This document shows, one piece after another, positions 3,433 through 22,241 of a stretch of DNA of 45,072 nt. The position numbers were made by a program, and so were the translations under genes. The stretch is from Nitrospirota bacterium (GTDB taxonomy: Bacteria; Nitrospirota; Nitrospiria; Nitrospirales; NS-4). A model generated the notes under the pieces. That model saw nothing but the letters and a program-made list of their open reading frames with translations. It was not told where the DNA came from and made no database searches. Location of the stretch: the NCBI GenBank assembly GCA_005877615.1, contig VBOD01000105.1:1-45072 (forward strand). Direction: 5' to 3'. Within the stretch, counting starts at the first letter, position 1, and every line of letters starts with the position of its first letter.

Positions 3433-4602
3433 CTAGTCGGCTTGCCTCCTTAAGAACGTTGGCACATCCCATTCCTCCTCGACCACCAGCATCGTCCGGT
3501 CCAGGGCCCGGTCGGCGCTGTCACGCGCGGCGGGGTTGCGCCGCATGAACGCCGGACGGTCCGCCGTCTTGGGATGCAGCTCATGCACCGGGGTTTCCCT
3601 GGTGGAGATCGTCGGAAGCGCCGTCTGACTCGGCGCATGCTGCGCAGCCTGCTCCCCGCGCTCGAACCCCGTCGCAATGACGGTGATCACCACTTCCTCT
3701 TTCAACCGCTCGTCGACCACCGCGCCGAAGATGATGTTGGCGTCCTTGTCCACCGCCTGCTCGATGATCGAGGAGGCCTGGGTCACCTCGTGCAGGGACA
3801 GGCTCGCGCCTCCCGTGATGTTCAGCAGCACCCCGCGCGCGCCGTCGATCGAGCCGTCCTCCAGCAGCGGGCTGGAGATCGCCCGCTGGGTGGCTTCGAC
3901 GGCCCGGTTGGCGCCGTGTGCCACGCCCATCCCCATGACCGCGCGCCCCATGTGCCCCATGACCGTGCGCACGTCCGCGAAGTCCACGTTGACGAGTCCC
4001 GGGATCGTGATAACGTCGGCGATGCCCTTGATCGCCTGCCGGAGCACGTCGTCCGCCACCTTGAAAGCCTCCCGCAATGGCGTGGTCTTGTCCACAACCC
4101 CCAGCAGCCGCTGGTTCGGGATCACCAACATGGTGTCCACGTGCTTGCGCAGCTCCCGCAGCCCTTCCTCGGCCCGCGTCATGCGCTTGCCCCCTTCGAA
4201 CAGGAACGGCTTGGTGACGACCGCCACCGTCAGCGCGTTGAGTTCGCGGGCAACGTTGGCGATGATCGGCGCGGCCCCCGTGCCGGTCCCCCCGCCCATC
4301 CCCGCCGTGACGAAGACCATGTCGGCGCCGACGAGCGCCTCGCGGATCTGCTCCGCGTCTTGCAATGCCGCTTGGCGCCCGATTTCCGGGTTTGCGCCGG
4401 CTCCGAGTCCGTTCTGCCCGATGCGGACCTTGGTCGGGGCCTTGGAGATCCCCAACGCCTGCATATCCGTATTGACCGCGATGAACTCGACCCCGACCAC
4501 GCCAGCCGCGATCATGGAGTTGACAGCGTTACAACCGCCCCCGCCGATGCCGATGACCTTGATCTTGGCACCCGCGATCGTCTCTTCTTCAAGCTGGAAC
4601 AT
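3433..4602 (-). CDS. ftsZ: Cell division protein FtsZ
   Basis: [30 protein letters not shown] tubulin signature; C-terminal peptide [11 protein letters not shown]. Start taken at [11 protein letters not shown]. Confidence 0.98.
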
Positions 4603-4652
4603 GCGATTCCTCCCTTCGTCGCGGGAGGGAGCCCTGCGCCCCTTCCCGTACC

Positions 4653-5900
4653 TCAAAAGAACTCCCGGAACCACCCTGTGACGTTCTCCACGGTCCGCCA
4701 CAGTCCGCGCCGGCTGCGGCGCCCGTTCAAAGCCAGATCGTCATGATGGTGCAGGGCATGGAGAATAAGGCCGACGCCGGTCGCGTATACGGGATTGTCC
4801 ACCTGCTCGCGAATGCCACCCACTCCCCAGGGGTACCCTCGCCGCGCGGGGAGGTCCAGCACGCGCTCCGCAACGTCCGGCATTCCCTCCATCAACGACG
4901 TCCCGCCGGTGAGCACCACCCCGCCCGCGACGATGCCCTCGTAGCCCGCCCGTTTGATCTCCCGCGCGACGAGATCGAAGACCTCCTCCGCACGCGGCTC
5001 GATCACGTCCGCCAGCAACCGGCACGAGAGCGAGCGCGGCGGCCGCCCGCCCATGCTGGGCACATCGATCATCTCGTCGTCCTTCACAAGGGAGGCCATG
5101 GCGCACCCGAACTGGATCTTGATCCGCTCGGCGTCGGGCATCGGCGTCTTGAGGCCGATGGCGATGTCGTTGGTGAAGTGCGACCCGCCGACCGGGATCA
5201 CGGCGGTGTGCATCACGCTGCCTTCGGCGAAGATCGCGAGGTCCGTGGTCCCGCCGCCCAAATCCACCATCGCCACCCCCAGCTCCCGCTCGTCGTCTGT
5301 GAGCACGGCCTCGCTGGAGGCGAGAGGTTGCAGGATGATGCCGATCACGTCGAGCCCCGCGCGCTCCACGCTCTTGACGAGGTTCTGGATCGCCGTCATG
5401 GCCCCCGTGATGATGTGCACGTTGACTTTCAGATGCGCGCCCGACATGCCCAGGGGGTCTCGGATCCCGTCCTGTTCGTCCAGGATGAATCCGCGGGGCA
5501 GGACGTGCAGCACCCGATGGTCCGGGGTGATGATGGCGGCGGCCCGCGCCGCCTTGACCGAGCGCGTGACGTCACTGCGGATCACCTCGCCGCTTTTGAC
5601 TGCCACCGCGGCCTCGGAGTTCAGCCCTTTGATATGGCTGCCGGCGATGCCGACGTAGACCGAGTTGATCTGCGTCCCTGATTTCATCTCGGCCTCGTCC
5701 ACGGCCCGGCGGATGGATTCAACGGTGCTCTCGATGTTGACGACCATGCCCTTGCGGAGTCCCCGGGAAGGACTCGTCCCGACCCCGACGACATGGGCCT
5801 TGCCGTCCTCGCGGGCTTCCGCCACGATCGCCCGCGTCTTGGTGGTGCCTATGTCCAGACCCACGATGATCTGGTCTTTCCTCGCCACGCCCCGCCTCAC
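4653..5900 (-). CDS. ftsA: Cell division protein FtsA
   Basis: [49 protein letters not shown]; the C-terminal amphipathic end is consistent with membrane targeting. Confidence 0.96.
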
Positions 5901-6724
5901 CTCCCTTCCCGCACGATGACCTTGTCCCGGAACCGGAGATCCACCTCCACTTTCTTACGCGCCGGCGCCGCCCGCTCCCGATCGCCCCAGCGATCGAGGA
6001 CCCGCTCCGACACCTGCCGATACCGGTCTACCTTATCCCCGAATTGCCCGTCGCCGAACCGAAGGCGGAACCCGGCGTCATACGCCACGAAGTCTCCCGG
6101 CGTCCCGAGGTCCACCACGGGCGGCCGGCCCACGGCCTGCCCGAGCAGGCCGGCTAGTGCGATCCCGGTCTGCAGGCGTTCGGCCGTCCATGGCTCCCGG
6201 AGGACCGCCTCCGCGTAATCCACGCCTTTCAACACCGGCAACGTGTCGTCGCGCCGCGGGGGGCGCTCCATCAAGAGGACTCCCTCGTAATCAACGAGGA
6301 AATCCCGTCTGTCGGTCCGTAGGATGGCCACCGGCTCCCGTTCCTGCACGTCCACCGCCAGGGTATGAGGGAACACCCGCCGGACGGCCGCGCGCCTGAT
6401 CCACGGATGCGTTTCCAACGCCCGTCGCAGCGCCACCGGATCGGTCCGGAGCAGCCCCCGCTCCGTCGGGAGATCGAGCACCGCCAACACCTGGTCCCGG
6501 GAGATCCGGCGCGTCTCCGTGAGGTCCACGGTCCGAATCACGAAGAACCGGTCGGCCCAGGCTACCAGATCGGGTCCCGCGCGCAGCCAGCCGTACCAGC
6601 CCGCGCCGGCACCCGCTGCGAACACCGTCAGCGCCACCAGCACCCTGGCAAGCGCGATCTTCCACCTGCGCCGGGGCCGTGCGTCGAGGTTGCACCTCCG
6701 ATTCGGACGGATCCGCTTGATCAT
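5897..6724 (-). CDS. ftsQ: Cell division protein FtsQ
   Basis: Single N-terminal TM then a POTRA-like region (HPWIRRAAVRRVFPHTLAVDVQEREPVA). Start at MIKRIRPNRR overlaps ddl by ATGA. The track ORF to 6934 is over-extended. Confidence 0.88.
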   Translation of the reverse strand: MIKRIRPNRRCNLDARPRRRWKIALARVLVALTVFAAGAGAGWYGWLRAGPDLVAWADRFFVIRTVDLTETRRISRDQVLAVLDLPTERGLLRTDPVALRRALETHPWIRRAAVRRVFPHTLAVDVQEREPVAILRTDRRDFLVDYEGVLLMERPPRRDDTLPVLKGVDYAEAVLREPWTAERLQTGIALAGLLGQAVGRPPVVDLGTPGDFVAYDAGFRLRFGDGQFGDKVDRYRQVSERVLDRWGDRERAAPARKKVEVDLRFRDKVIVREGR

Positions 6725-7671
6725 GCGCGACCCCTGGAGGGCGCCCACTCGGCCTCCCGTTGAAGGGCCGATGTGAGGATCGCCTCCACCATATCCTCGT
6801 ACGACAGACGCGCAGCCTTCGCCGCCATCGGCAACAAGCTCGTTTCTGTCATCCCCGGCACCGTGTTCAGCTCTAGGATGAACGGCCGTCCACTCTTGTC
6901 CAGCCGGAAGTCCACCCGGGTGGCGCCCCGGCACCCCAAGCGGCGATGCATGTCCAGCGCGAGCTCCTGAAGTTGCTTGGTCAGCCGGTTCGAGAGCTTG
7001 GCGGGAACCTGGTAATGGCTGGCGCCCGGGGTGTACTTGGCGGCGAAATCGTAAAAGCCGTTCTTCGGAATGATCTCCACGATCGGCAATGGACGGTCGT
7101 TCAAGATCGCGACCGTGAGTTCCCGGCCGTCGATGTACTCCTCGATCAGCGCCGCCGGGCCGTAGGCGAACGCCGCGTCGAGCGCGGCCCGGAGGGCTCG
7201 CGTTTTGCGGATGACAGTGATCCCCAACGTCGAGCCCTGATTGACAGGCTTGATCACCAGGGGGAACTTGTAGCCGGACGGGAGGGGTCTTCTCCGCTCG
7301 CGGAGGGTCCGTACAAACCCACGCGGCACCGGCAGCCCCCCATGTTCCAGCAGGCGCTTCGTCATCGCCTTGTCCATCGCCACCGCACAGGCCTGGACCC
7401 CAGACCCGGTATAGGGCATCCGCAGCACTTCGAGCATCCCCTGGATCGTGCCGTCCTCACCTCCAGGCCCATGCAGCGCTATGAAAGCGATCTGCGCCCG
7501 GACTTCCCGGAGGCGCGCGACCACAGACGCGTCCACTTCCAGCGGGATGGCGTCGTAGCCCTTCCGGATCAGCGCCGCCCAGACCGCCCGGCCGCTGCGG
7601 AGCGAGATCTCCCGCTCGGCGGACAGCCCTCCCATCAGCACCGCGATGCGCTTGGTGGTCAGCAACTTCAC
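6721..7671 (-). CDS. ddl: D-alanine--D-alanine ligase
   Basis: VLMGGLSAEREISLRSG; HGPGGEDGTIQGMLE; VKPVNQGSTLGITV; LELNTVPGMTETSLLPMAA. Confidence 0.96.
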   Translation of the reverse strand: MKLLTTKRIAVLMGGLSAEREISLRSGRAVWAALIRKGYDAIPLEVDASVVARLREVRAQIAFIALHGPGGEDGTIQGMLEVLRMPYTGSGVQACAVAMDKAMTKRLLEHGGLPVPRGFVRTLRERRRPLPSGYKFPLVIKPVNQGSTLGITVIRKTRALRAALDAAFAYGPAALIEEYIDGRELTVAILNDRPLPIVEIIPKNGFYDFAAKYTPGASHYQVPAKLSNRLTKQLQELALDMHRRLGCRGATRVDFRLDKSGRPFILELNTVPGMTETSLLPMAAKAARLSYEDMVEAILTSALQREAEWAPSRGRA

Positions 7672-8561
7672 GCCCGCCCCACGATCTTCACTTCAAGCTG
7701 CAGCGTCACGCCCGTCTTCTCCTCGACGGTCTGGCCGACCTTGCGGATCAGCGCCAGCACGTCGCGGGCCGTGGCGCGGCCGCGGTTCACGATGAAGTTG
7801 GCATGCAGGGGGGAGACCTGCGCGTCCCCGACCTGGGCCCCCTTCAGGCCGGCCGCTTCGATTAGCCACCCGGCCGGCTCCCCGCCCGGGTTCTTGAAGA
7901 CGCAGCCGGCGTTAGGGAGCGCGAGCGGCTGCGTGGCCTTCCTCCGATGCAACGCTTCTTTCACCGTCGCTTCGCTGCGGGCGGTGGGGTCCCATCGGAG
8001 TTGGAGCCACGCGCCCACGATGATGCCATCGGGCAGAAAGGTGCGGCGGTACTCGAACCCCACCTCGTCGGCAGACAGTTCGCGCCTCTCCCCCGACGGC
8101 GTCACGAGACGGACGCGTCGCACGACGTCCTTCATCTCCCCCAAGCGGGTCCCGGCGTTCATGACGATGGCGCCGGCCAGCGTTCCAGGAATGCCCGCGG
8201 CGAATTCAAGCCCGGCCAGCTTGCGCTGAAGGGCGTACTTAAGCAGCCGCGGCATCCCCACACCTCCTTGCGCGTACAGGAGCCCGCCTTCGTGCTCCTC
8301 GATCCGATCGAATTTGGTGAGCCGCACCACAATCCCACGGATGCCGCCGTCCCGGACCAACAGATTGGTCCCACCTATGACGAAGACCGGCACCTTCGCT
8401 TTGCGCGCCTGCACCATGAGAAGCCGGAGCGCCTCTTCGTCCTCAGGTTCGATCAACGCATCCGCCGGGCCCCCGATCCGGAAGGAGGTGTACTGGCTCA
8501 TGGGTTCGTGGAACCGGACCGTGCCTTGCACCCCCGACAGGGCCGACCGGATTTCTCGCAT
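7668..8561 (-). CDS. murB: UDP-N-acetylmuramate dehydrogenase
   Basis: YTSFRIGGPADALIEPE, VIGGTNLLVRDGGIRGIVVRL, AGIPGTLAGAIVMNAG, NAGCVFKNP. Start MREIRSALSG; the track ORF to 8909 is over-extended. Confidence 0.95.
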   Translation of the reverse strand: MREIRSALSGVQGTVRFHEPMSQYTSFRIGGPADALIEPEDEEALRLLMVQARKAKVPVFVIGGTNLLVRDGGIRGIVVRLTKFDRIEEHEGGLLYAQGGVGMPRLLKYALQRKLAGLEFAAGIPGTLAGAIVMNAGTRLGEMKDVVRRVRLVTPSGERRELSADEVGFEYRRTFLPDGIIVGAWLQLRWDPTARSEATVKEALHRRKATQPLALPNAGCVFKNPGGEPAGWLIEAAGLKGAQVGDAQVSPLHANFIVNRGRATARDVLALIRKVGQTVEEKTGVTLQLEVKIVGRA

Positions 8562-8575
8562 GCCGATCCTTCTCC

Positions 8576-9943
8576 TCACCCCAATCGTTCGAAGAGCGCC
8601 CGCCCGATCTGCCCGATGTCGCCCGCGCCCAGCGCTACGACCACGTCCCCAGGCTTGAGCACAGGCAGCACCGCCTCGACAAGTTGCTCCTTGCGCGGGA
8701 TGTAGGTCAGCGGCGGCGAGCCGACTCTCCGGATGACCTCCGCCAGCCGTTCGCCGGTGACGCCCGGGATCGGCGCCTCCCCGGCCGGGTAGATGTCGGT
8801 CAGGAACAGGTGGGCAGCCTGCTTGAACGCCGCCGGGAATTCCTCGAGCAAGTCCTTCGTCCGCGTGAACCGGTGCGGTTGGAACAACACCACCAACCGT
8901 CGGCCCCATCCGTTCTTCGCCGCGGCGAGAGTCGCCTTGATTTCGGTCGGATGGTGGCCGTAGTCGTCCACCACCAGCACGCCGCCTTTTTCGCCCAGCA
9001 CTTGGAACCGCCGCTCCACTCCCTTGAACCCGGCGAGCGCCTGGTCGATGTGCTGGAGCGTCACGCCCAGCTCCAACCCGACGGCGATCGCCGCCAGCGC
9101 GTTCCGGACGTTATGGATGCCCGGCATCGCGACCTTGAATCGGCCCAGCGGCGCGCCGCGCAGCCGCGCCGAGAACTCGGCGACGCCGACGTGGAGCTGC
9201 ACGTCCGTGCCTACCAGGTCGGCCGACGAGGTCAACCCGTACGTCTGGTAGCGCTTGATCACGCGGGGCAGCAGCGCGGCGAGAGAGGGATCGTCGGCAC
9301 AGAGGACCGACAGACCGTAGAACGGGACCTTGTTGATGAAGTCCAGGAAGGTCTCGCAGAGGCGCTCCATCGTGCCGTAGTGATCCAAGTGCTCGCGATC
9401 CAAGTTGGTCACGACCACCACGGTCGGCGAGAGCTTCATGAACGAGCCGTCGCTCTCGTCCGCTTCGGCGACCAGCAGATCTCCCCGGCCCAGCCGCGCG
9501 TGGCTGCCAAGCGCGTTGACCTTGCCTCCGATCACGATCGTGGGATCGAGCCCGCCCTCGGCCAGCACGTTGGCGACCAACGAGGTCGTTGTGGTCTTGC
9601 CATGCGCGCCCGCGATGGCCACGCCGTACTTGAGCCGCATCAGCTCGGCCAGCATCTCGGCGCGCGGGATGACCGGGATGACCCTGGCCTTGGCGGCCAC
9701 GACTTCCGGGTTGGTCGGCGGTACAGCCGACGAGACGACCACCACCTGTGCGTTGCCGATGTTCGACGCGGCGTGGCCGATGAAGACGGTGCCTCCGAGA
9801 GCGCGAATCCGCCGGACGGACTCCGATTCGTGCAGGTCCGACCCGGTCACGTGGTAGCCGAGCGTCAAGAGCACTTCCGCGATGCCGCTCATGCCCGCAC
9901 CGCCAATGCCCACGAAATGAATATGCTGAATCTTCCTGAACAT
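8576..9943 (-). CDS. murC: UDP-N-acetylmuramate--L-alanine ligase
   Basis: [48 protein letters not shown]. Confidence 0.97.
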
Positions 9944-11149: not shown

Positions 11150-12304
11150 TCAAATGGGTGGGCGGTGCCGGGCGACCGCCATGAGGAGCCCGGCCCCGAC
11201 CATGCTGACGACCAGAGACGACCCTCCGTAACTCAGGAACGGCAACGTCAATCCCTTGGTGGGCAGCAGACCCGTGATCACCCCCACATTGATCAACACG
11301 TGGAACCCGATCAGCAAACTGACTCCCAAGGCCACATGGCGCGCGAAGGGGTCGTCCGCTTCCAATGCGATCGTGAAGCCCTTCGCCACAAACGCCCCCA
11401 GTAGCAGGATGACCATGGCGGTCCCGACAAACCCGAGTTCCTCGCCCAACGCCGCGAGCACGAAATCCGTATGGGGCTCCGGCAGGTAGAACAGCTTCTG
11501 CCGCCCCTCGCCGAGCCCTACCCCGAATGGGCCCCCGCGCCCGAGCGCGAAAAACGACTGGATCACCTGGAAACCCGTCCCCGTGGGATCGCTCCACGGG
11601 TCCCAGAAGCTCAGGAGGCGCTGGCGGCGGTAGGCGACCCGCATGAGGAGGACGTACAGGATTGGCAGGGCGGCCATGGAGATCACCAGCAGATGGCTCA
11701 GCCGAGCGCCGCCCACAAAGAGCACGCCCAAGGTCACCAGACCGATCACAGCCGCGGTCCCCATATCGGGCTCGATCACGATGAGCGCGACGAGCAGCCC
11801 GACCACCACCAGGGGCGGCACGAAGCCCCGCCAGAGGTCGGCGATCCGATCCCCCTTCCTCGCCAGGTAATGCGCCAGGTAGAGCACGACGCCTAGCTTG
11901 ACCACCTCGGAAGGCTGGATCGTGAGCGCGCCGATCCGGAGCCATCGGCGCGCGCCCTTGACCGTCACCCCGATGGATGGCAACAGCACGAGCACGAGGC
12001 CGAGCAGGCCGAGGAGAAGGACCGGCGCCGCCCAACGCCGCAGTGTCGCGAGGTCGCACCGGGCCACGACCAGCAAGGCCACCAGTCCGACGGCACACCA
12101 CAGCAGTTGCCGCTTGAGAAAGTAGGAGGGAGCGCCGAAGCGTTTGTCGGCCAAGACCCCGCTCGCACTGTAGATCACGCCGAGGCCGATCGCCACCAGA
12201 AGGAGTGTCAGGAGAAGGATCGTGTGATCGCTGCGCCGCGGGCGCTCGGCCACCGCGGCGTCAGACCATCGGAGGCCCATGGTCTGCTGGTCAACCCAGC
12301 TCAT
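11150..12304 (-). CDS. ftsW: Peptidoglycan polymerase FtsW (SEDS family)
   Basis: About 10 TM segments; LRIGALTIQPSEVVKLGVVLYLA, ALGEELGFVGT, GLTLPFLSYGGSSLV. Start could be 12304 or 12280. Confidence 0.95.
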   Translation of the reverse strand: MSWVDQQTMGLRWSDAAVAERPRRSDHTILLLTLLLVAIGLGVIYSASGVLADKRFGAPSYFLKRQLLWCAVGLVALLVVARCDLATLRRWAAPVLLLGLLGLVLVLLPSIGVTVKGARRWLRIGALTIQPSEVVKLGVVLYLAHYLARKGDRIADLWRGFVPPLVVVGLLVALIVIEPDMGTAAVIGLVTLGVLFVGGARLSHLLVISMAALPILYVLLMRVAYRRQRLLSFWDPWSDPTGTGFQVIQSFFALGRGGPFGVGLGEGRQKLFYLPEPHTDFVLAALGEELGFVGTAMVILLLGAFVAKGFTIALEADDPFARHVALGVSLLIGFHVLINVGVITGLLPTKGLTLPFLSYGGSSLVVSMVGAGLLMAVARHRPPI

Positions 12305-13679
12305 GCACGTACTCCTTGAACTGGCGCCCGCGGTCCCTATAGTCCGCGAACATGTCGAAGCTGGCGCAGGCCGGGGACAGCAGGACCGTGTCGCCCGGCG
12401 CCGCCAGCGCCGCTGCAATTCGCACCGCCTCGGCGAGGCTACCGACCTCCGTCACCGGGCAGACCCCGGCCAAGATTTCACGCAGGCGGGCGCGCGCCTC
12501 GCCGAGCAGGATGACCTGCTTGGCCTTGCGCCGGACCACTTCGGCCAGTCCCGGATACTCGCCACCCTTCTCGCGGCCACCGGCGATCAGGATGACGGGC
12601 GCCGGCAGGCTCTCCAGCGCCTTGATCGTGGCGTCCACGTTCGTGCCTTTGGAATCGTTGATGTACGCCACCCCGCGCCGGACCCGCACGACCTCCATCA
12701 CATGCTCCAACCCCCGGAACGCACGCAGTCCCTGGCCGATGGTGGCGATCGGGCAGCCGGCCAGGGTGGCCACCGCGGCGACCGCCATCGCGTTCTCGAC
12801 GTTGTGGGGGCCGCGTACTTGAAGGGCGCTCACCCGGCAGACCTCTTCGAAGCCGTCTCGCACCGTGGAGATGATGGCATCCCCGTCCACGAACACGCCC
12901 CGCTCGATGGCGCGTGTGCGGCTGAACAGCACGCGGGTTCCCGCAAAGCCATCGGCGGCGCGAGCTAGCCGGGGATCATCGGCGTTGAGGACCGAATAGT
13001 CCTTGGCGGTCTGGTTCTCGAACATTCGGAGCTTCGCCGCGGCGTATGCCTCCATGGAGGTATAGCGGTCCAGATGATCGGGCGTCACGTTCAGGATCGC
13101 TCCGATCCAGGGGTGGAAGGTCTCGATCGTCTCCAGTTGAAAGCTGGACACTTCGACCACCACAAAATCCCATCGCTTGCCGTGTAAGGCGGCATAGGCG
13201 GCCTCCGCCAGCGGCGTCCCGAGGTTGCCGCCGACGAACGGCTCGTAGCCCGCCCGCTGCAGCACCTCGCCGATCCAGGTTACCGTCGTGCTCTTCCCGT
13301 TCGTCCCCGTCACCGCAATGAGCTTGCCGGTGAGGCACCGGGCGGCGAGCTCCAGTTCTCCGATCACGCGGACGCCGGCGGCGCGCGCACGCCGGAGCGG
13401 CTCGAGCGTCAGCGGAACGCCCGGGCTGACCACGACGAGGTCCGCGCCCCGCAGCGCCGGCTCGTAGGCACCGCCGCTGTGGACTTCCAGATCGCCGGCC
13501 CGCAGGCCTTCCAGTGTGGCCGCCAACTCGGCGAGCGGTTTCTGGTCCGCGACCGCAACGCGCGCGCCCAGCTCCCCGAGCAACCGCACCGCTGCGATGC
13601 CGCTCCGTCCCAGGCCGATCACGGCGACCCGCTTCCCCGCCACTTCCACCGACGTCCGTTCGCCCATGACCACGCTCAT
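12291..13679 (-). CDS. murD: UDP-N-acetylmuramoylalanine--D-glutamate ligase
   Basis: [69 protein letters not shown]. Confidence 0.96.
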
Positions 13680-14752
13680 CGCAGCTTCAGTGTGCTCAGG
13701 CTGAAGAGCGCGAGCAGCACGGCGATGATCCACAGACGGACCACCACTTTCGGCTCCTCCCAGCCTTTCAACTCGAAATGGTGATGAATGGGCGCCATGA
13801 GGAACACCCGCTTGCCCCGTGACTTGAAGGAGGCCACCTGAAAGATCACCGACAGCGCTTCGAGCACGAAGACACCGCCGACCAGCAGTAGCAGCAGCTC
13901 GTGCTTGCTGATCACCGCGACGGTGCCGAGGGCGGCGCCCAACGGCAGCGACCCGACGTCCCCCATGAAGACCGACGCCGGATAGGTGTTGAACCAGAGG
14001 AAGCCCAGGCTGGCTCCGAAGATGGCGCCCGTGAAGATGGCCAGCTCGCCCGCGCCCTCGATGTAGGGGATGAGGAGATAGTCGGCGAAGACCCTGTGGC
14101 CCGACACATAGGCCACCACGGTATACGCCAGGGCGGCGACCATGACCGGGCCGATGGCCAGGCCGTCCAGTCCGTCTGTCAAGTTGACGGCATTGGACGC
14201 GCCCACGATGATCAGCACGGCGAACGGAATGTAGAAGAGCCCGAGGTCCGGCGAAAAGAACTTGAAGAAGGGCACGCTGAGCTTCGTGGAATAGGCCGGC
14301 AGGGAGTAGAACAGCGCCCCGATGCCGAGCGCCACGACGGCCTGGGCGATGATCTTCTGCAGTGCCGTCAGACCCTCGTTCTTCCCGTGGACAGTCTTGA
14401 GATAGTCGTCCCAGAAACCCACCGCACCGAACCCGAGTATTGCGAAGACCGCCAGCCAGACATAGCGATTGGTCAGATCGGTCCAGAGGAGCGTCGAGAT
14501 GATGACCGCGAAGAGGATCAGGATGCCCCCCATGGTAGGCGTGCCACCCTTGACTTGGTGCCGGCGGGGGCCGTCCTCGCGGATTCGCTGGCCAACGCCG
14601 TAGCTCTGCAGCGCGCGGATCACCGGAGGGGCGAGCACGATGACAAGCACAAAGGCAGTGAGCGCGGCGTAGATGAGCCGGAAGCTGAGGTAGCGGAAGA
14701 CGTTGAAGATCGAGAACTGCGTGTGAAGGGGATAGAGCAAGAGGTAGAGCAT
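13676..14752 (-). CDS. mraY: Phospho-N-acetylmuramoyl-pentapeptide transferase
   Basis: [57 protein letters not shown]. Confidence 0.97.
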
Positions 14753-16236
14753 TACGCCAACTCCTCCATCACGCGTTCCATTCGCGTGCCCCGCGAGCCC
14801 TTGAGCAGCACGACATCGCCCGCGCGCAGAATGTCCTTGAGTCGTTCGGCCAGGCCCGCGTGCTCCTGCGTCACGATCACGCGATCCACCGGCATCCCCA
14901 CCCCCCGCGCACCAGCGGCGATCTCCGCCGCCAGATCCCCGACGGTCAGGAGATAATCGGTCCCCTGGCGGGCCAACTCCTCTCCGATATCCCGGTGGAT
15001 CCGTACGGATCCCTCGCCCAGCTCCAGCATGTCCCCCAGCACGGCGATCGCGCGTCCGTTCCCCTTCAACTCACCCTTGAGTTCAGCCAGCCAGCGGAGC
15101 GCGGCCCGCATCGATGAGGGATTCGCGTTATAACAATCGTTCAGCCACGTCACCCCCCGCCACCGGCGCACCTCGGAGCGCATGGCAGTCGGGCGGAAAC
15201 GAGCAAGGCCCGCTCGGATCGCGCTTTCGCCGACGCCCAACGCAAGCCCCGTCGCGATCGCCGCCAGGGCGTTAGCAATGTTGTGGGCCCCGGCCACGCC
15301 CAGCGTGACCGAGAGCGGACGCGCGCGGCCGCGCACGCCGACGCGAACGAAGGAAAAAGCCAGTCCCCGTCGCTCGACCTGCAAAGCCCGCACGTCGGCC
15401 CGCTCGGAGAATCCGAAGGAGCGCACCTGTCCCCGCACCCGCGCGGCGAGGTCCTTGAAGAACGCGTCGTCCGCGTTGAGGACGGCCGTGCCGTCCCGGG
15501 GCAGCCGGTCCAGCATCTCGCCCTTGGCCTGCGCCACGGTACGGAGATCCCCGAGGGTCTCCAGATGGGTCGGTCCGATATTGGTCAACACGCCGTGGGT
15601 CGGCTCGGCGATCTCGCAGAGCCGCGCCATCTCCCCCAGCCTGCTGATACCCATCTCGATGACCGCCGCCTCATGGCGAGCCGTCAAGCGCAGCAGGGTC
15701 TGCGGCACGCCAATGTGATTGTTGAGGTTGCCGTCGGTCTTCAACACAGGGAAGCATTCCGCGAGGATGGCCCCGATCATCTCCTTGGTCGTCGTCTTAC
15801 CGTTGCTCCCGCTGACTGCCACCACCGGGATGGCGAAGCGGCGACGGTGCGCGCGTGCCAACTCCTGAAACGCGCGGAGGGGATCCTCCACCTCGATCAA
15901 GAGCGCCTTCCACGCTTTCTTTCTAGCGGGATGGGGCCCCGCAGACGCCCCTCCCGCACCCACGAACCCGCGCCGCACGATTGCCCCGACGGCGCCCTTC
16001 TTCAGCGCGTCGGCCACGAACTGGTGACCGTCAAAGCGGGCTCCGGTCAGCGCCACGAACAGATCGCCGCGCCGAACCGTTCGCGAATCCGTCCAGAGCC
16101 GTCGGATCGCCGTATTCGGCAAGGCCTGAGCCAAAACCCCGCCGGTGATCGTGGCTATTTCGTCGGTCGTGAACAGGGGCACGGCGTCATCCGACTCCTG
16201 ATCCGAACACTCCGCGGTCTGCAGCAGCAGACTCAT
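14752..16236 (-). CDS. murF: UDP-N-acetylmuramoyl-tripeptide--D-alanyl-D-alanine ligase
   Basis: [58 protein letters not shown]. Confidence 0.95.
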
Positions 16237-17723
16237 CGGGCCAGAGCCTCGATGGCCTCCCGCGCCACCACGCGGTCATCAAAGGGATGCTTCTCCTGCC
16301 CGATAATTTGGTAATCCTCATGCCCTTTCCCGGCAATCAGCACCAGATCGCCGGGCCGTGCAAGCCTCATGGCTTCTGCAATCGCTGCGCGCCGATCCGC
16401 CTGGACCAGGTAGCGGCCGTGTCCCGCTTCCCGCAGCCCGGCTTCCACGCCAGGGAGAATCTCCCGGATGATGGCGTCGGGATCCTCGGTGCGGGGATTG
16501 TCGGACGTGACCACCACGACATCGCTGTAGCGCGCGGCCACCCGCCCCATCTTGGGCCGCTTGCCCCGATCCCGATCGCCCCCGCAGCCGAACACGGTGA
16601 TGATCCGGCCCGTCCTGACCGTCTGGGCTGTGGTCAGCAACCGGTAGAGCGCATCCTCGGTGTGGGCGTAGTCCACAACCACTGTGAACGGCTGGCCGGC
16701 ATCCACCTGCTCGAACCGACCCGGGACAGTCTTGAGCGTGGCGACTCCCGCGGCACTCGTCTCCAGCGGCACGCCCTGCACCAGCCCGACCCCGACCGCC
16801 GCCAGGATATTGTAGACGTTGTGTCGGCCCACGAGTGGAGACCGGAGTGCGACCGATCCCCCCGGCCCACGGGCCGTGAACCGCACGCCGTTCAGGGAAA
16901 TCTGCACGTCTTCGGCGCGAAGATCGGCCGGACGATCGATAGCGTAGGTCCACACCTTTGCCTGCGTTGCCTCGACGACACGTCCGCCATAGGGATCGTC
17001 GCCGTTCACGATCGCGTGCGCCTCTGAGTCCAGCGCCGTGAAGAGCCGCAGCTTTGCGCGAAAGTAGTCTTCCATGTCGGCATGGAAATCCAGGTGGTCC
17101 TGCGTGAGATTGGTGAACACCGCTGTCCCGAATTGGCATCCCGCCGTCCGATCGAGCGCGAGCGCATGAGAGGACACCTCCATCACCACCGCTTGCATGC
17201 CTGCGTCCGCCATTCTCCGAAGCAAGCCCTGTAACTCCAACGGGCCGGGGGTCGTGTGGGTCGCCGCCACCCGTTCTTCGCCGAACAGGTAAGCCACGGT
17301 GCCGATCAGTCCCGCCCGCACGCCGGCGGCCTCCAGGATCGCCTTGCAAAGATAGGTCGCCGTCGTCTTCCCGTTGGTGCCGGTCACGCCGATCATCTTC
17401 AGCCGGCGGGACGGATCCCCATAGAACCGACTTGCCAGGAGACCCAAGGCCCGGCGCGAGTCGCCGACCTGGATCACAGGTATCCCGATCGACGCCAGAG
17501 TCTCTCCGGACACCCGCCCCGTCTCCACTACGATCGCGCCGGCTCCGGCCGCGACGGCCTGCGCGAGAAAGCGATGGCCGTCCGATTGCGTTCCCTTCAC
17601 CGCGACGAACAGCCAGCCAGGAGACACCCGCCGCGAATCATCCGTGAGCCCGGTGATCTCCCGATCCAGACTGCCCCGCACCGTCACCCCATCGAGGACG
17701 TCCCCGCATTCCCGAAGTCTCAT
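16233..17723 (-). CDS. murE: UDP-N-acetylmuramoyl-L-alanyl-D-glutamate--2,6-diaminopimelate ligase
   Basis: DDSRRVSPGWLFVAVKG, GVTGTNGKTTATYL, TNLTQDHLDFH, VVVTSDNPRTEDPDAI (DNPR is typical of meso-DAP-type MurE), IAGKGHEDYQI. Confidence 0.95.
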   Translation of the reverse strand: MRLRECGDVLDGVTVRGSLDREITGLTDDSRRVSPGWLFVAVKGTQSDGHRFLAQAVAAGAGAIVVETGRVSGETLASIGIPVIQVGDSRRALGLLASRFYGDPSRRLKMIGVTGTNGKTTATYLCKAILEAAGVRAGLIGTVAYLFGEERVAATHTTPGPLELQGLLRRMADAGMQAVVMEVSSHALALDRTAGCQFGTAVFTNLTQDHLDFHADMEDYFRAKLRLFTALDSEAHAIVNGDDPYGGRVVEATQAKVWTYAIDRPADLRAEDVQISLNGVRFTARGPGGSVALRSPLVGRHNVYNILAAVGVGLVQGVPLETSAAGVATLKTVPGRFEQVDAGQPFTVVVDYAHTEDALYRLLTTAQTVRTGRIITVFGCGGDRDRGKRPKMGRVAARYSDVVVVTSDNPRTEDPDAIIREILPGVEAGLREAGHGRYLVQADRRAAIAEAMRLARPGDLVLIAGKGHEDYQIIGQEKHPFDDRVVAREAIEALAR

Positions 17724-19435
17724 CGCGCTGCAAGAATCTGGCCTTGCTCCGTTTTCGGTACGATGCCCAGATGGCGTACCGCCTGCGTCGCAATCCGCTG
17801 GAAGACGGGCGCCGCCACAGTGCCTCCCCAGTGCTCGGTCCGCGGCTCATCCACCACGACCAGGATGGCCAGCTTGGGATCGTCCGCTGGCAGGAACCCG
17901 ACGAACGAGCTGACCATCCGCGTTGCCGAATAGGCTCCGGTGAGCGGATCGATCTTCTGCGCGGTCCCGGTCTTGCCGGCCACGTCGTACCCGGGCACAG
18001 CCCCGAGCATGCCGGTCCCGCCGGGCAGGACGGCGCCGCGCATGATCTCGGTCAGGTCCTTGGCCGTTTTCGTGGAGATGGGGCGGCGGCGGACGACCGG
18101 CTCGAAGCGAGCAACGGTCTCCCCGGTCGAGGATCGGACCTCGGACACCACGTAGGGCCGCATCAGCCAGCCTCCGTTGGCAATGGCCGCCACCGCCATC
18201 ACCAACTGCAAGGGGGTCACCCCGATCTCTTGGCCAATAGCGATCGAAGCCCGCGTGCGGCGGCCCCACTCGTGGAGTTCCTTGGTCAGGCCTCGCTGTT
18301 CTCCTGTCAGATCGACGTCTGTCTTTTGACCAAATCCGAAGGCGTTGAGGTACCAGGCGAGCTTTGCCGGCGCCAGTTGCTGCGCCACTTTGATCATCCC
18401 GATGTTGCTGGACCGCTGAAGGACTTGGGCGAAGGTCATCCACCCGTTCTTGTGGTGATCGTGGACTACCGTGTTCTCCACGACGTACCGACCGTTCTCG
18501 CCATAGATGAACTCGCGCGGCGAGACCAGTCTCTCTTCGAGCGCCGCCGCGGCGACCACAAGCTTGAACGTTGAGCCGGGCTCGTACGCGTCGCTGATGG
18601 CGCGGTTGCGCCACAGGTTCGGATCTGCCTTGGGTTCATTAGGATCGAAGGTCGGCCGCACGGCCATGGCCAGGATCGCGCCGGTCTTCGGCTCCACCAC
18701 GATGACGACGCCCGAGACCGCCCGCGTGCGCGCGACCACATTGGCCAGCTCCTGGTCTGCGATATATTGAATCACCTCATCGATCGTGAGGACCAGATCC
18801 TTGCCCGGGGACGGCGCGACGTAATTGAGCCCTTTCGGGAACACAGCCCCGCCGAAGGCATCCCGTTCTACCACCAGCCGACCCCGCTCACCCCGCAGCG
18901 CGGCATCGTACCGCCGCTCCAGCCCCTCCAACCCTTGGTTGTCGATATTGCCAAACCCGAGGACGTGCGACAGCATAACACCTTTGGGATAGAACCGACG
19001 CCCCTCAGGAATTACCCCAATGCCATCGAGGGCAAGACCCTGTAACCCCTCTGCCCGCTCGGGCGTGAGATGTCGCTGCAGCCAGACAAAGTCCCGCTCG
19101 CTCTTCAACTTGGCTTCCAGTTGCCGCGCGTCCGCCTTGAGCACACGGCTGAGCCGGACGGCCGTGGCCCGGGGGTCCGACACGTATTTGGGAGCGCCGA
19201 AGACCGATGGCACATCCATGGTGATCGCTAAGATCTTACCGTTACGATCGAAGATCGCGCCACGCCCGCCCTCCACCGTAAGCATCTTTTGGTACTGGCG
19301 GCCGGCCAACTGGGCCAACTCGTCCGCGCGGATGACCTGCAACTGGAAGAGGCGTCCCAAGGCGACGAGAAAACCAAGGCCCAGCAGTATCCCCGCCGCG
19401 ACTGTCCGCCAGCGTCTGGCGTCCTCTTCCATCAT
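17720..19435 (-). CDS. ftsI: Penicillin-binding protein / peptidoglycan D,D-transpeptidase FtsI
   Basis: N-terminal TM, GRGAIFDRNGKILA, EPGSTFKLV (SxxK), SSN (SxN), AGKTGTAQK (KTG). No PASTA domain seen. Confidence 0.94.
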   Translation of the reverse strand: MMEEDARRWRTVAAGILLGLGFLVALGRLFQLQVIRADELAQLAGRQYQKMLTVEGGRGAIFDRNGKILAITMDVPSVFGAPKYVSDPRATAVRLSRVLKADARQLEAKLKSERDFVWLQRHLTPERAEGLQGLALDGIGVIPEGRRFYPKGVMLSHVLGFGNIDNQGLEGLERRYDAALRGERGRLVVERDAFGGAVFPKGLNYVAPSPGKDLVLTIDEVIQYIADQELANVVARTRAVSGVVIVVEPKTGAILAMAVRPTFDPNEPKADPNLWRNRAISDAYEPGSTFKLVVAAAALEERLVSPREFIYGENGRYVVENTVVHDHHKNGWMTFAQVLQRSSNIGMIKVAQQLAPAKLAWYLNAFGFGQKTDVDLTGEQRGLTKELHEWGRRTRASIAIGQEIGVTPLQLVMAVAAIANGGWLMRPYVVSEVRSSTGETVARFEPVVRRRPISTKTAKDLTEIMRGAVLPGGTGMLGAVPGYDVAGKTGTAQKIDPLTGAYSATRMVSSFVGFLPADDPKLAILVVVDEPRTEHWGGTVAAPVFQRIATQAVRHLGIVPKTEQGQILAAR

Positions 19436-19454: not shown

Positions 19455-19766
19455 TCATCGGGTATGCGACGCCCGGACTACGCGTCCCGCCGGCTCGTTC
19501 CTCGATGGCGGTGAAACGCCCTGCACCAACACGACCTGATTGTACCGGGGCTGCGTCATGCCAAGCCGAGACACTGCCACCCGTTCGATCTGATCCGGCG
19601 CGGTCAACCGGGCGAACTCCAGCTTCAGCATTTTCTGCTCCTGCTGCGCCTGCTTCTTCCATGCCTGGAGCTGCTCAATCGCATACCCGGTCCGGTAGAT
19701 ATCCATTTTCTCCCACACGGCGCAGAGAGCGAGAGCTAACAGCACCGTTCCTGCCAGGAATTTCAT
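19455..19766 (-). CDS. ftsL: Cell division protein FtsL
   Basis: Small bitopic protein with TM plus coiled coil (MKFLAGTVLLALALCAVWEKMDIYRTGYAIEQLQAWKKQAQQEQKMLKLEFARLTAPDQIERVAVSRLGM), positioned between rsmH and ftsI. Confidence 0.85.
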   Translation of the reverse strand: MKFLAGTVLLALALCAVWEKMDIYRTGYAIEQLQAWKKQAQQEQKMLKLEFARLTAPDQIERVAVSRLGMTQPRYNQVVLVQGVSPPSRNEPAGRVVRASHTR

Positions 19767-20662
19767 GCGGCGGCCTCCCGCGCAGCCAGTACCCGCAGTT
19801 TGGCGCTTCGGGCACGGGGATTCTCCACACATTCCTCGGCCGACGGTGTGATCGGGCGCTTGGTCAGGACAGTGAAACCCGCCGCCGGTCCCTGCGCCAG
19901 TGCCCGGAACGTGTGCTTCACGATGCGGTCTTCGAGCGAATGGAAGGCGAGGACCACAAGCCGACCGCCGGGACGCAACAGCGCAGCGATCTGTCGCAGC
20001 GCTGGTTCGAGGCTTTCGAGTTCGTGGTTTACGGCGATCCGTAGCGCCTGAAAGGTCCGCGTGGCGAAGTGGAGCCGTCCGTGCAGGTACACCGGCGGCA
20101 CCGCTTCTCGGATGACCTCGACCAACGCCAGCGTCGTCAGAACGGGGCTTTGGGCTCGCCTTCGGACGATTCCCTTAGTAATGCGTCGTGCGTAGCGCTC
20201 CTCTCCGTGTTCCTCAAGGATCCGGGCCAGCTCCTTCTCCGGCAGGCGATTGACGAGATCCGCAGCCGTCACGGAGTCCCGCACGTCCATCCGCATGTCC
20301 AGCGGTCCGTTCGCCAGAAAACTGAACCCCCGGGCGGGCGTGTCCAGTTGCAGGGAGGAGACACCCAGGTCCAGCAGGGCACCATCGAGATTGCGCTCTG
20401 TCGTTTCTCGCACCACATACGGGGCATCACCATAAGTAGCCTGCACGACCACCGCCCGATCGCCGTACGGGCGGAGTGCCTGCCGGGCGGTCGCCACTGC
20501 TGTTGCGTCACGATCCAACGCGACGATCCGCCCATCTGGCCCACTCGCTTCAAGGATGGCCAAGCTGTGTCCTCCCGCCCCGGTCGTCCCGTCGAGATAG
20601 ATCCCTCCAGCCCTTGGTTGCAGCCAAGCCAACACTTCTTGCAGCATCACAGGGCGGTGCAT
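19763..20662 (-). CDS. rsmH: 16S rRNA (cytosine1402-N4)-methyltransferase
   Basis: HRPVMLQEVLAWL, YLDGTTGAGGHSLAIL, LLDLGVSSLQLDTPARGFSF, VLAFHSLEDRIVKHTFR. Confidence 0.97.
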   Translation of the reverse strand: MHRPVMLQEVLAWLQPRAGGIYLDGTTGAGGHSLAILEASGPDGRIVALDRDATAVATARQALRPYGDRAVVVQATYGDAPYVVRETTERNLDGALLDLGVSSLQLDTPARGFSFLANGPLDMRMDVRDSVTAADLVNRLPEKELARILEEHGEERYARRITKGIVRRRAQSPVLTTLALVEVIREAVPPVYLHGRLHFATRTFQALRIAVNHELESLEPALRQIAALLRPGGRLVVLAFHSLEDRIVKHTFRALAQGPAAGFTVLTKRPITPSAEECVENPRARSAKLRVLAAREAAA

Positions 20663-20743
20663 GACTGCAATCCTGACCAGGTTCCATCATCAGCGGCCAA
20701 CAATAAGAAGGTCGCTCATTCTAAAGTTTTACCATTAGGAGAG

Positions 20744-20768
20744 AACCACTCATACCCACTTTCACCCA
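20744..20768 (-). promoter_or_regulatory. Three MraZ-type boxes (TGGGN direct repeats, 10-bp period)
   Basis: Minus strand: TGGGT-gaaag-TGGGT-atgag-TGGTT. Plus-strand boxes at 20764-20768, 20754-20758 and 20744-20748 (third has one mismatch). Matches the TGGGN-N5 repeat pattern known for MraZ operators of dcw promoters. Confidence 0.75.
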
Positions 20769-20780
20769 CTATTCGGCGCA

Positions 20781-20808
20781 AGTATACCTGCCGCCAAGGC
20801 ATTGTCAA
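20781..20808 (-). promoter_or_regulatory. Sigma70-type promoter of the dcw operon
   Basis: Minus strand TTGACA (20808-20803), 16-bp spacer, TATACT (20786-20781); AT-rich UP-like CCATAAATTTTTC directly upstream. Confidence 0.75.
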
Positions 20809-20861
20809 GAAAAATTTATGGTTTTTGAATGGATTGGAAAATCTTCCCTAATGCTATGGCC

Positions 20862-20870
20862 TGTGGATAA
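20862..20870 (-). promoter_or_regulatory. Perfect 9-mer DnaA box (TTATCCACA)
   Basis: Plus strand TGTGGATAA at 20862-20870, about 55 bp upstream of the dcw -35. Confidence 0.45.
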
Positions 20871-20945
20871 ATATGGACATCCTAGTTGGCTTGCCTAGGG
20901 ATTGGTAGCGAAGCCTACCACGACCAGTTGTGAGAGGCGAACGGG

Positions 20946-22241
20946 TTAGGGGTAAATCTTGTACAGCATGCGAGGGAAAGGAATGGTCTCCCGGACATGC
21001 TCCAGCCCACAGATCCAGGCCACCGCTCGTTCGATACCCATCCCGAAACCGGCGTGAGGGACCGATCCGAACGTGCGAAGCTCCACGTACCACCGGTAGG
21101 CGTCTTCGGACAACTGGTGGGCTTTCAGGCGCGCGAGCAGCTTGTCGCGCTCGTGGATGCGCTGCCCGCCACCGATGATCTCGCCATACCCTTCCGGGGC
21201 CAGAACGTCCATGCACAGAGCCAGATCCGAGTTCTCAGGATCATTTTGCATGTAAAACGCCTTCAAAGCCGTCGGATAGCGGTGAATGATCACCGGGCGG
21301 TCGAATTCATTGGAGAGGATCGTCTCCTCGTCGCCGCCGAAGTCGTCACCCGGTTGGATCGGGTTGCCCTTCTTCTGCAGCCGTTCCACCGCTTCGGCGT
21401 AAGTGATCCGGGGAAACGGGGCAACGACGACCTCCAGCTTGTTCATATCCCGTTCCAAGACCTTCAACTCTTCCCGCCGGCGCTCCAGCACACGGGCGAC
21501 GATAGACGTCAGAAACTCCTCGGCCAGCGCCATGACATCGGCGAGCTCCGCAAAGGCGACCTCCGGCTCCACCATCCAGAACTCCATGAGGTGGCGTCTA
21601 GTCTTGGACTTCTCGGCCCGGAAGGTCGGTCCGAAACAATACACTTTGCCGAACGCCGCGGCGGTCGCTTCGTTGTAGAGTTGGCCGCTTTGGGTCAGAT
21701 AGGCCTTTTCGCCGAAATAGTCGGTCTCGAACAGCGTGGTCGTCCCCTCGCAGGCGTTCGGGGTGAAGATGGGCGTGTCGACCAGGAGGAACCCGCGATC
21801 ATCGAAAAAAGTGCGGCAGGCGCGGATGATCTCGTGACGGATGCGCAAGATCGCTTGCTGGCGGTGGGATCGGATCCAGAGATGCCGATGCTCCATCAGG
21901 AAGCCGGTCCCGTGCTCTTTGGGCTGGATCGGGAACTCTTCCTGAACGAGATGGAGCACCTCTAGTCGGTTGACATGCAGCTCGTGCCCGCCCGGTGCCC
22001 GCGCGTCGGCCTGGACGGCTCCGGTCAGCACGAGGGACGATTCTTGGGTCAGCCGGCTGGTCAGCTCGAACGCTTCGTCCCCGACCGCAGCCTTGCTGAC
22101 GACGGCCTGTATATCGCCCGTCCCATCCCGCACGACGAGGAATGCGATCTTGCCTCCGACCCGCTTGTGGCGAAGCCACCCTCGAACCGTCGCCTCCTGT
22201 CCCGCATACCGCGCAATATCTTTGACATCCGAGATCGGCAT
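20946..22241 (-). CDS. asnS: Asparaginyl-tRNA synthetase
   Basis: [13 protein letters not shown]-fold N-terminus, [68 protein letters not shown]. Confidence 0.95.

Follow-up and report, generated by a model that had tools for sequence, protein, structure and literature searches.

A predicted MraZ operator in front of rsmH, with mraZ at a distant locus, in an order of Nitrospirota

The dcw cluster and the operator in front of rsmH

The window analyzed here is a stretch of 45,072 nucleotides from a Nitrospirota bacterium, and carries a dcw cluster on its minus strand. Its features, from the upstream neighbor to the last cluster gene listed, are as follows.

20946–22241, minus strand: asnS-like class II tRNA synthetase gene, upstream neighbor (Pfam tRNA-synt_2, tRNA_anti-codon)
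20803–20808, minus strand: −35 hexamer TTGACA of the dcw/rsmH promoter (direct reading and promoter scan)
20781–20786, minus strand: −10 hexamer TATACT (direct reading and promoter scan; conserved in the order)
20764–20768, minus strand: predicted MraZ box 1, TGGGT (direct reading, pattern count, PWM)
20754–20758, minus strand: predicted MraZ box 2, TGGGT (direct reading, pattern count, PWM; the most conserved box across the order)
20744–20748, minus strand: predicted MraZ box 3, TGGTT (direct reading, pattern count, PWM)
19763–20662, minus strand: rsmH (mraW), first cluster gene here (Pfam PF01795, 341 bits)
19455–19832, minus strand: ftsL-like gene (Pfam FtsL, 26.1 bits, barely above the cut-off of 22.9)
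17720–19435, minus strand: ftsI-type transpeptidase gene (Pfam Transpeptidase and PBP_dimer)
16233–17723, minus strand: Mur ligase gene, murE by position (Pfam Mur_ligase, Mur_ligase_M, Mur_ligase_C)
14752–16236, minus strand: Mur ligase gene, murF by position (Pfam)
13676–14752, minus strand: mraY (Pfam Glycos_transf_4 and a weak MraY signature)
12291–13733, minus strand: murD (Pfam MurD-like_N, Mur_ligase_M)
8576–9943, minus strand: Mur ligase gene, murC by position (Pfam)
7668–8909, minus strand: murB (Pfam MurB_C)
5897–6934, minus strand: ftsQ (Pfam POTRA_1, FtsQ-type)
4653–5900, minus strand: ftsA (Pfam FtsA, SHS2_FTSA)
3433–4701, minus strand: ftsZ (Pfam Tubulin/FtsZ, FtsZ_C)

Read directly on the minus strand from 20768 to 20744, the leader of rsmH contains TGGGT-N5-TGGGT-N5-TGGTT with an exact 10-bp period. 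The promoter behind which this triplet lies, TTGACA-N16-TATACT, has a spacer of 16 nt, agrees with the consensus at 11 of 12 positions, and is the sole promoter-like site in 20640–20960. Twelve nucleotides separate the −10 hexamer from box 1, whose T is 13 nt past the last −10 base; counted from a transcription start predicted from the promoter, box 1 begins at about +7 and the operator spans about +7 to +31. The locus thus shows the two characteristics of an MraZ operator, namely at least three direct GTGG(G) boxes with a 10-bp period in a dcw promoter region, and a position just downstream of the −10 around the predicted dcw start. What it lacks is the usual first gene, since rsmH rather than mraZ stands right behind the operator, a feature that is not part of the binding site.

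The operator pattern, with up to two mismatches allowed, occurs once in the window, where shuffles average 0.10 occurrences. A PWM trained without this genome's family assigns the site 31.8 bits; the runner-up non-overlapping site in the window reaches 7.7 bits, and the maximum over 40 dinucleotide-Markov simulated windows is 14.3 bits. Direct reading and PWM score both bear out the original prediction of an MraZ-type triplet behind a near-consensus promoter. Genome-wide operator scans were made by pattern matching only, and the strict pattern RTGGGNNNNRGTGGGNNNNNNTGG has a single match in 1.82 Mb, the rsmH operator itself. A loose-pattern match at C3:16091 was discarded as an operator because it apparently lies inside a coding region. 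An Rfam search of the rsmH leader matched no family, and the pattern AGTGGRNNNAGTGGRNNNAGTGG, which has a 9-bp period, matched nothing useful across the order.

The mraZ gene is nearly always the first gene of the operon that MraZ targets. This holds for the E. coli Pmra promoter, where the MraZ operator lies upstream of mraZ-rsmH and mraZ represses itself (Eraso et al. 2014, as cited in PMC8475190 and PMC7761207). The window shares with Pmra the TGGG-type boxes at a 10-bp period before the dcw cluster, but here rsmH comes first behind the operator and mraZ is elsewhere. In Mollicutes the operator is given as (AAAGTGKN3)3 (Fisunov et al. 2016, as cited in PMC5282649 and PMC8475190); three direct repeats with a GTG core and a 10-bp period are common to both, box 2 of the window reading AAAGTGGG, whereas the Mollicutes operator adjoins mraZ. 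In the Burkholderia cenocepacia promoter PmraBc the repeats follow the −10 and extend across the transcription start (PMC7761207), a placement matched here relative to the predicted start, although PmraBc has four repeats and mraZ as its first gene, as opposed to three repeats and rsmH. MraZ is an oligomeric regulator, described as an octamer on GTG-core repeats in Mollicutes and B. cenocepacia (PMC5282649, PMC7761207).

Location of mraZ in this genome and in its order

A PF02381 search of all contigs of the genome found no mraZ within the window, as had been claimed from the window itself, and the genome-wide search then proposed does locate the gene. The only matches are two domains of a single gene on another contig, C19:5244–5699 (91.6 bits, two stretches), whose product has solved MraZ chains as its best PDB matches. 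The gene has both characteristics of the MraZ family, two PF02381 domains and a DXXXR motif in each half. In front of it lie a comF-like gene and a gene for an HTH_17 protein of 68 residues, and behind it a RusA-like gene whose match falls slightly under the Pfam cut-off.

The assembly is fragmented (131 contigs), which raises the question of whether mraZ really adjoins rsmH, or C19 comes from another organism. We give this explanation practically no credence. The path from asnS through promoter and operator to rsmH is continuous in the window, and the C19 mraZ is 91–95% identical to the mraZ of three genomes of the same genus. Furthermore, the same arrangement is found across the order, which is not visible from the window alone. 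Among the order's 59 genomes, mraZ is found in 58 and rsmH in 55, and none of the 54 rsmH promoters read has mraZ between promoter and rsmH. The two genes share a contig in 13 genomes, always at a distance of about 137 kb or more. Seven of the 13 (G012, G024, G025, G030, G044, G051, and G054) are single-contig genomes, and an assembly artefact is excluded because mraZ is far from rsmH in each. Named records inside the group include Nitrospira sp.

In genome G004 another rsmH-type operator, with the sequence seen in genus g1, sits at the end of a contig (C334, 92–115; L117). That contig probably derives from a related strain included in the bin.

Conservation and ancestry of the operator

The comparison of rsmH upstream regions suggested by the original prediction shows that the boxes are conserved in relatives; neither of the outcomes named there as refuting it, lack of box conservation or mraZ inside this operon, was observed. 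Of 54 genomes compared in the order, 53 have TTGACA and a 16-nt spacer before rsmH and one has TTGACT, and 46 of 54 promoters score at least 20 bits with the PWM, 41 of the 54 having been included in its training. The four promoters of this genome's own family, which were held out, score 29–32 bits. GTGG box columns carry 1.41 bits on average versus 0.69 in the spacers and about 0.2 in the flanks, the box figure being inflated by an alignment anchored on the best box match and by omission of the most eroded genera. The leaders exceed their own shuffles, searched identically, in 51 of 54 cases.

The boxes could in principle be a relic of the time when mraZ stood there and now be unused, an option raised by the original prediction. 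Erosion is indeed under way in some genera of family f3: the operator is eroded in f3g10, f3g11, and f3g16, and partly in f3g13, which has two clear direct boxes, though mraZ is present in all four genera. However, this option is at odds with most of the order. In families f1, f2, and f4 and in most of f3 the box columns stand far above spacers and flanks, and the −10 spacing and 10-bp period are kept. MraZ itself persists in 58 of 59 genomes with both DXXXR motifs present. Six rsmH loci from other phyla, classed as mraZ-less by their immediate surroundings, carry no boxes and score below −7 with the PWM; cyanobacteria are reported to lack mraZ (PMC8871954). We consider a relic unlikely.

In f3g11 (L058, L063, and L038) the boxes are eroded or shifted, the −10 is now TATAAT, and mraZ is still present, making these genomes natural candidates for lost MraZ control of dcw. 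In f3g13 (L045, L046, L050, and L079) the third box seems to be inverted in the same 10-bp phase, reading TTCCACA in three loci and GGCCACA in the fourth. A seemingly inverted middle box, TCCCA, with the 10-bp phase kept, is found in L083 (f3g10) and in L132. Such inverted boxes might reflect chance or a tolerated orientation.

All 33 loci from the other orders of this class (L235–L267) have mraZ between operator and rsmH, unlike the order studied here. Elsewhere in the phylum mraZ precedes rsmH at 29 of 30 loci, in some of which the two genes are separated by a few hundred bases. In nearly all of these loci a cassette of the same promoter, spacing, and box triplet (TTGACA-N16/17-TATAMT plus triplet) is found before mraZ, with box 1 mostly 10–12 nt past the −10. 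This too cannot be seen from the window alone. The PWM built from promoters without mraZ also recovers the E. coli K-12 mraZ operator (24.2 and 21.7 bits) and mostly gives 20–35 bits on mraZ operators of other phyla. Since mraZ-first loci with the same cassette occur in sister orders and in the phylum at large, the cassette is ancestral and mraZ departed from it; the simplest account is a single departure from the dcw cluster at the base of the order, with the operator left in place. A genome from another class of the phylum (G116) has a second, weakly matching MraZ-family gene (C3:42672–43022) besides its normal one.

The distant MraZ and control of the dcw cluster

In a tree of 147 columns with long branches, the MraZ proteins of the order are monophyletic (100/100), with a stem of 1.43 changes per site. 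Both DXXXR motifs, D11-R15 and D89-R93, show no variation within the order, while R77, an invariant Arg elsewhere, is His in most of the order, and the specificity of this diverged MraZ could have shifted. In the best tree the clade is placed separately from the other MraZ of the class, raising the possibility that a foreign MraZ replaced the old gene and uses the old operator in trans. The AU test does not reject trees in which the order's MraZ is constrained to join the remaining MraZ of the phylum, however (p 0.28 and 0.33), and the columns are few and the branches long. Replacement, which is compatible with the explanation we prefer, is thus a tentative proposal.

The promoter of mraZ itself differs within the order. 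No MraZ-type triplet is found in the 500 bases before mraZ in f2, f3, or f4 (best score about 6 bits or less). Family f1 has a TGGCA triplet with a 10-bp period (up to 17.3 bits) upstream of the −35 of an HTH-mraZ operon, and a further loose pattern matches this genome only at the rsmH operator and at this triplet. TGACA/TGTCA repeats with a period of about 10 bp occupy the same place upstream of the −35 in f2. In f1 and the majority of f2, mraZ comes after a 68-residue HTH_17 gene; at the locus on C19 (L003, G000:C19) the repeats lie at 4932–4960 and the HTH gene at 5026–5232. An autoregulatory role of the f1 triplet as an MraZ site is less likely, as the repeats track the HTH gene: because TGRCA repeats are found only where an HTH gene precedes mraZ, they are more likely the operator of the HTH protein. 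Since most mraZ promoters of the order are without MraZ boxes, MraZ autoregulation was probably lost in the order, f1 being the least certain case.

The lack of boxes at most mraZ promoters, together with the strong divergence of MraZ, would also fit a takeover in which another factor uses the rsmH boxes and the distant MraZ does a different job. We regard this as quite improbable, and it is not needed to account for the data: there is no candidate factor, the sequence and geometry of the boxes match those of genomes with adjacent mraZ, and MraZ has kept both DXXXR motifs.

In our assessment, which draws on sequence comparison, it is highly probable that the boxes are a genuine MraZ operator derived from an ancestral promoter-operator-mraZ-rsmH-dcw arrangement, and that the distant MraZ acts on them in trans, probably repressing dcw. 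Action in trans, one of the options of the original prediction, is supported by the mraZ gene on C19, by the order-wide arrangement including single-contig genomes, and by conservation of the boxes relative to their surroundings. At the base of the order mraZ would have left the cluster, either by moving or by being lost and replaced by a copy elsewhere, and promoter and operator would have stayed before rsmH. MraZ made from the distant locus (C19:5244–5699 in this genome) would then bind the boxes at about +7 to +31, a site just downstream of the −10 that fits a block of initiation or early elongation. Negative autoregulation would probably be gone and the level of MraZ set by another promoter.

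Since MraZ is a repressor in both E. coli and Mycoplasma genitalium (PMC8475190), analogy makes dcw repression the most probable effect here, a sign that we propose with moderate confidence. The sign is uncertain because the MraZ of Neisseria elongata behaves as if it were an activator: loss of mraZ lowers dcw transcripts and ectopic expression raises them (PMC9395523). N. elongata thus provides a precedent for trans action. In M. genitalium, complementation with mraZ is reported to have worked only in cis, and it was proposed that repression by MraZ depends on its gene being linked to the operator and the cluster (PMC8475190).

We lean toward the broader view that, throughout the order, a self-limiting loop on dcw has given way to one-way control by a diverged or replaced MraZ that acts in trans on the old operator. 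The promoter expressing this MraZ would be unlinked to dcw, and in two families mraZ would stand behind the gene of a small HTH regulator that has repeats of its own. If true, one-way trans control contradicts, for these bacteria, the linkage proposal made for M. genitalium (PMC8475190). A literature search for mraZ and Nitrospira, with partial coverage of the literature, found no report of this arrangement. The feature departs from the known regulatory unit in that operator and promoter are conserved while the regulator gene is unlinked throughout an order. The order, including records named Nitrospira, appears to have had the unlinked arrangement since its origin. Neighboring orders are available for comparison, making cis versus trans action and the purpose of MraZ autoregulation directly testable, and the clean separation of operator and gene offers a system for studying the co-evolution of MraZ and its DNA site.
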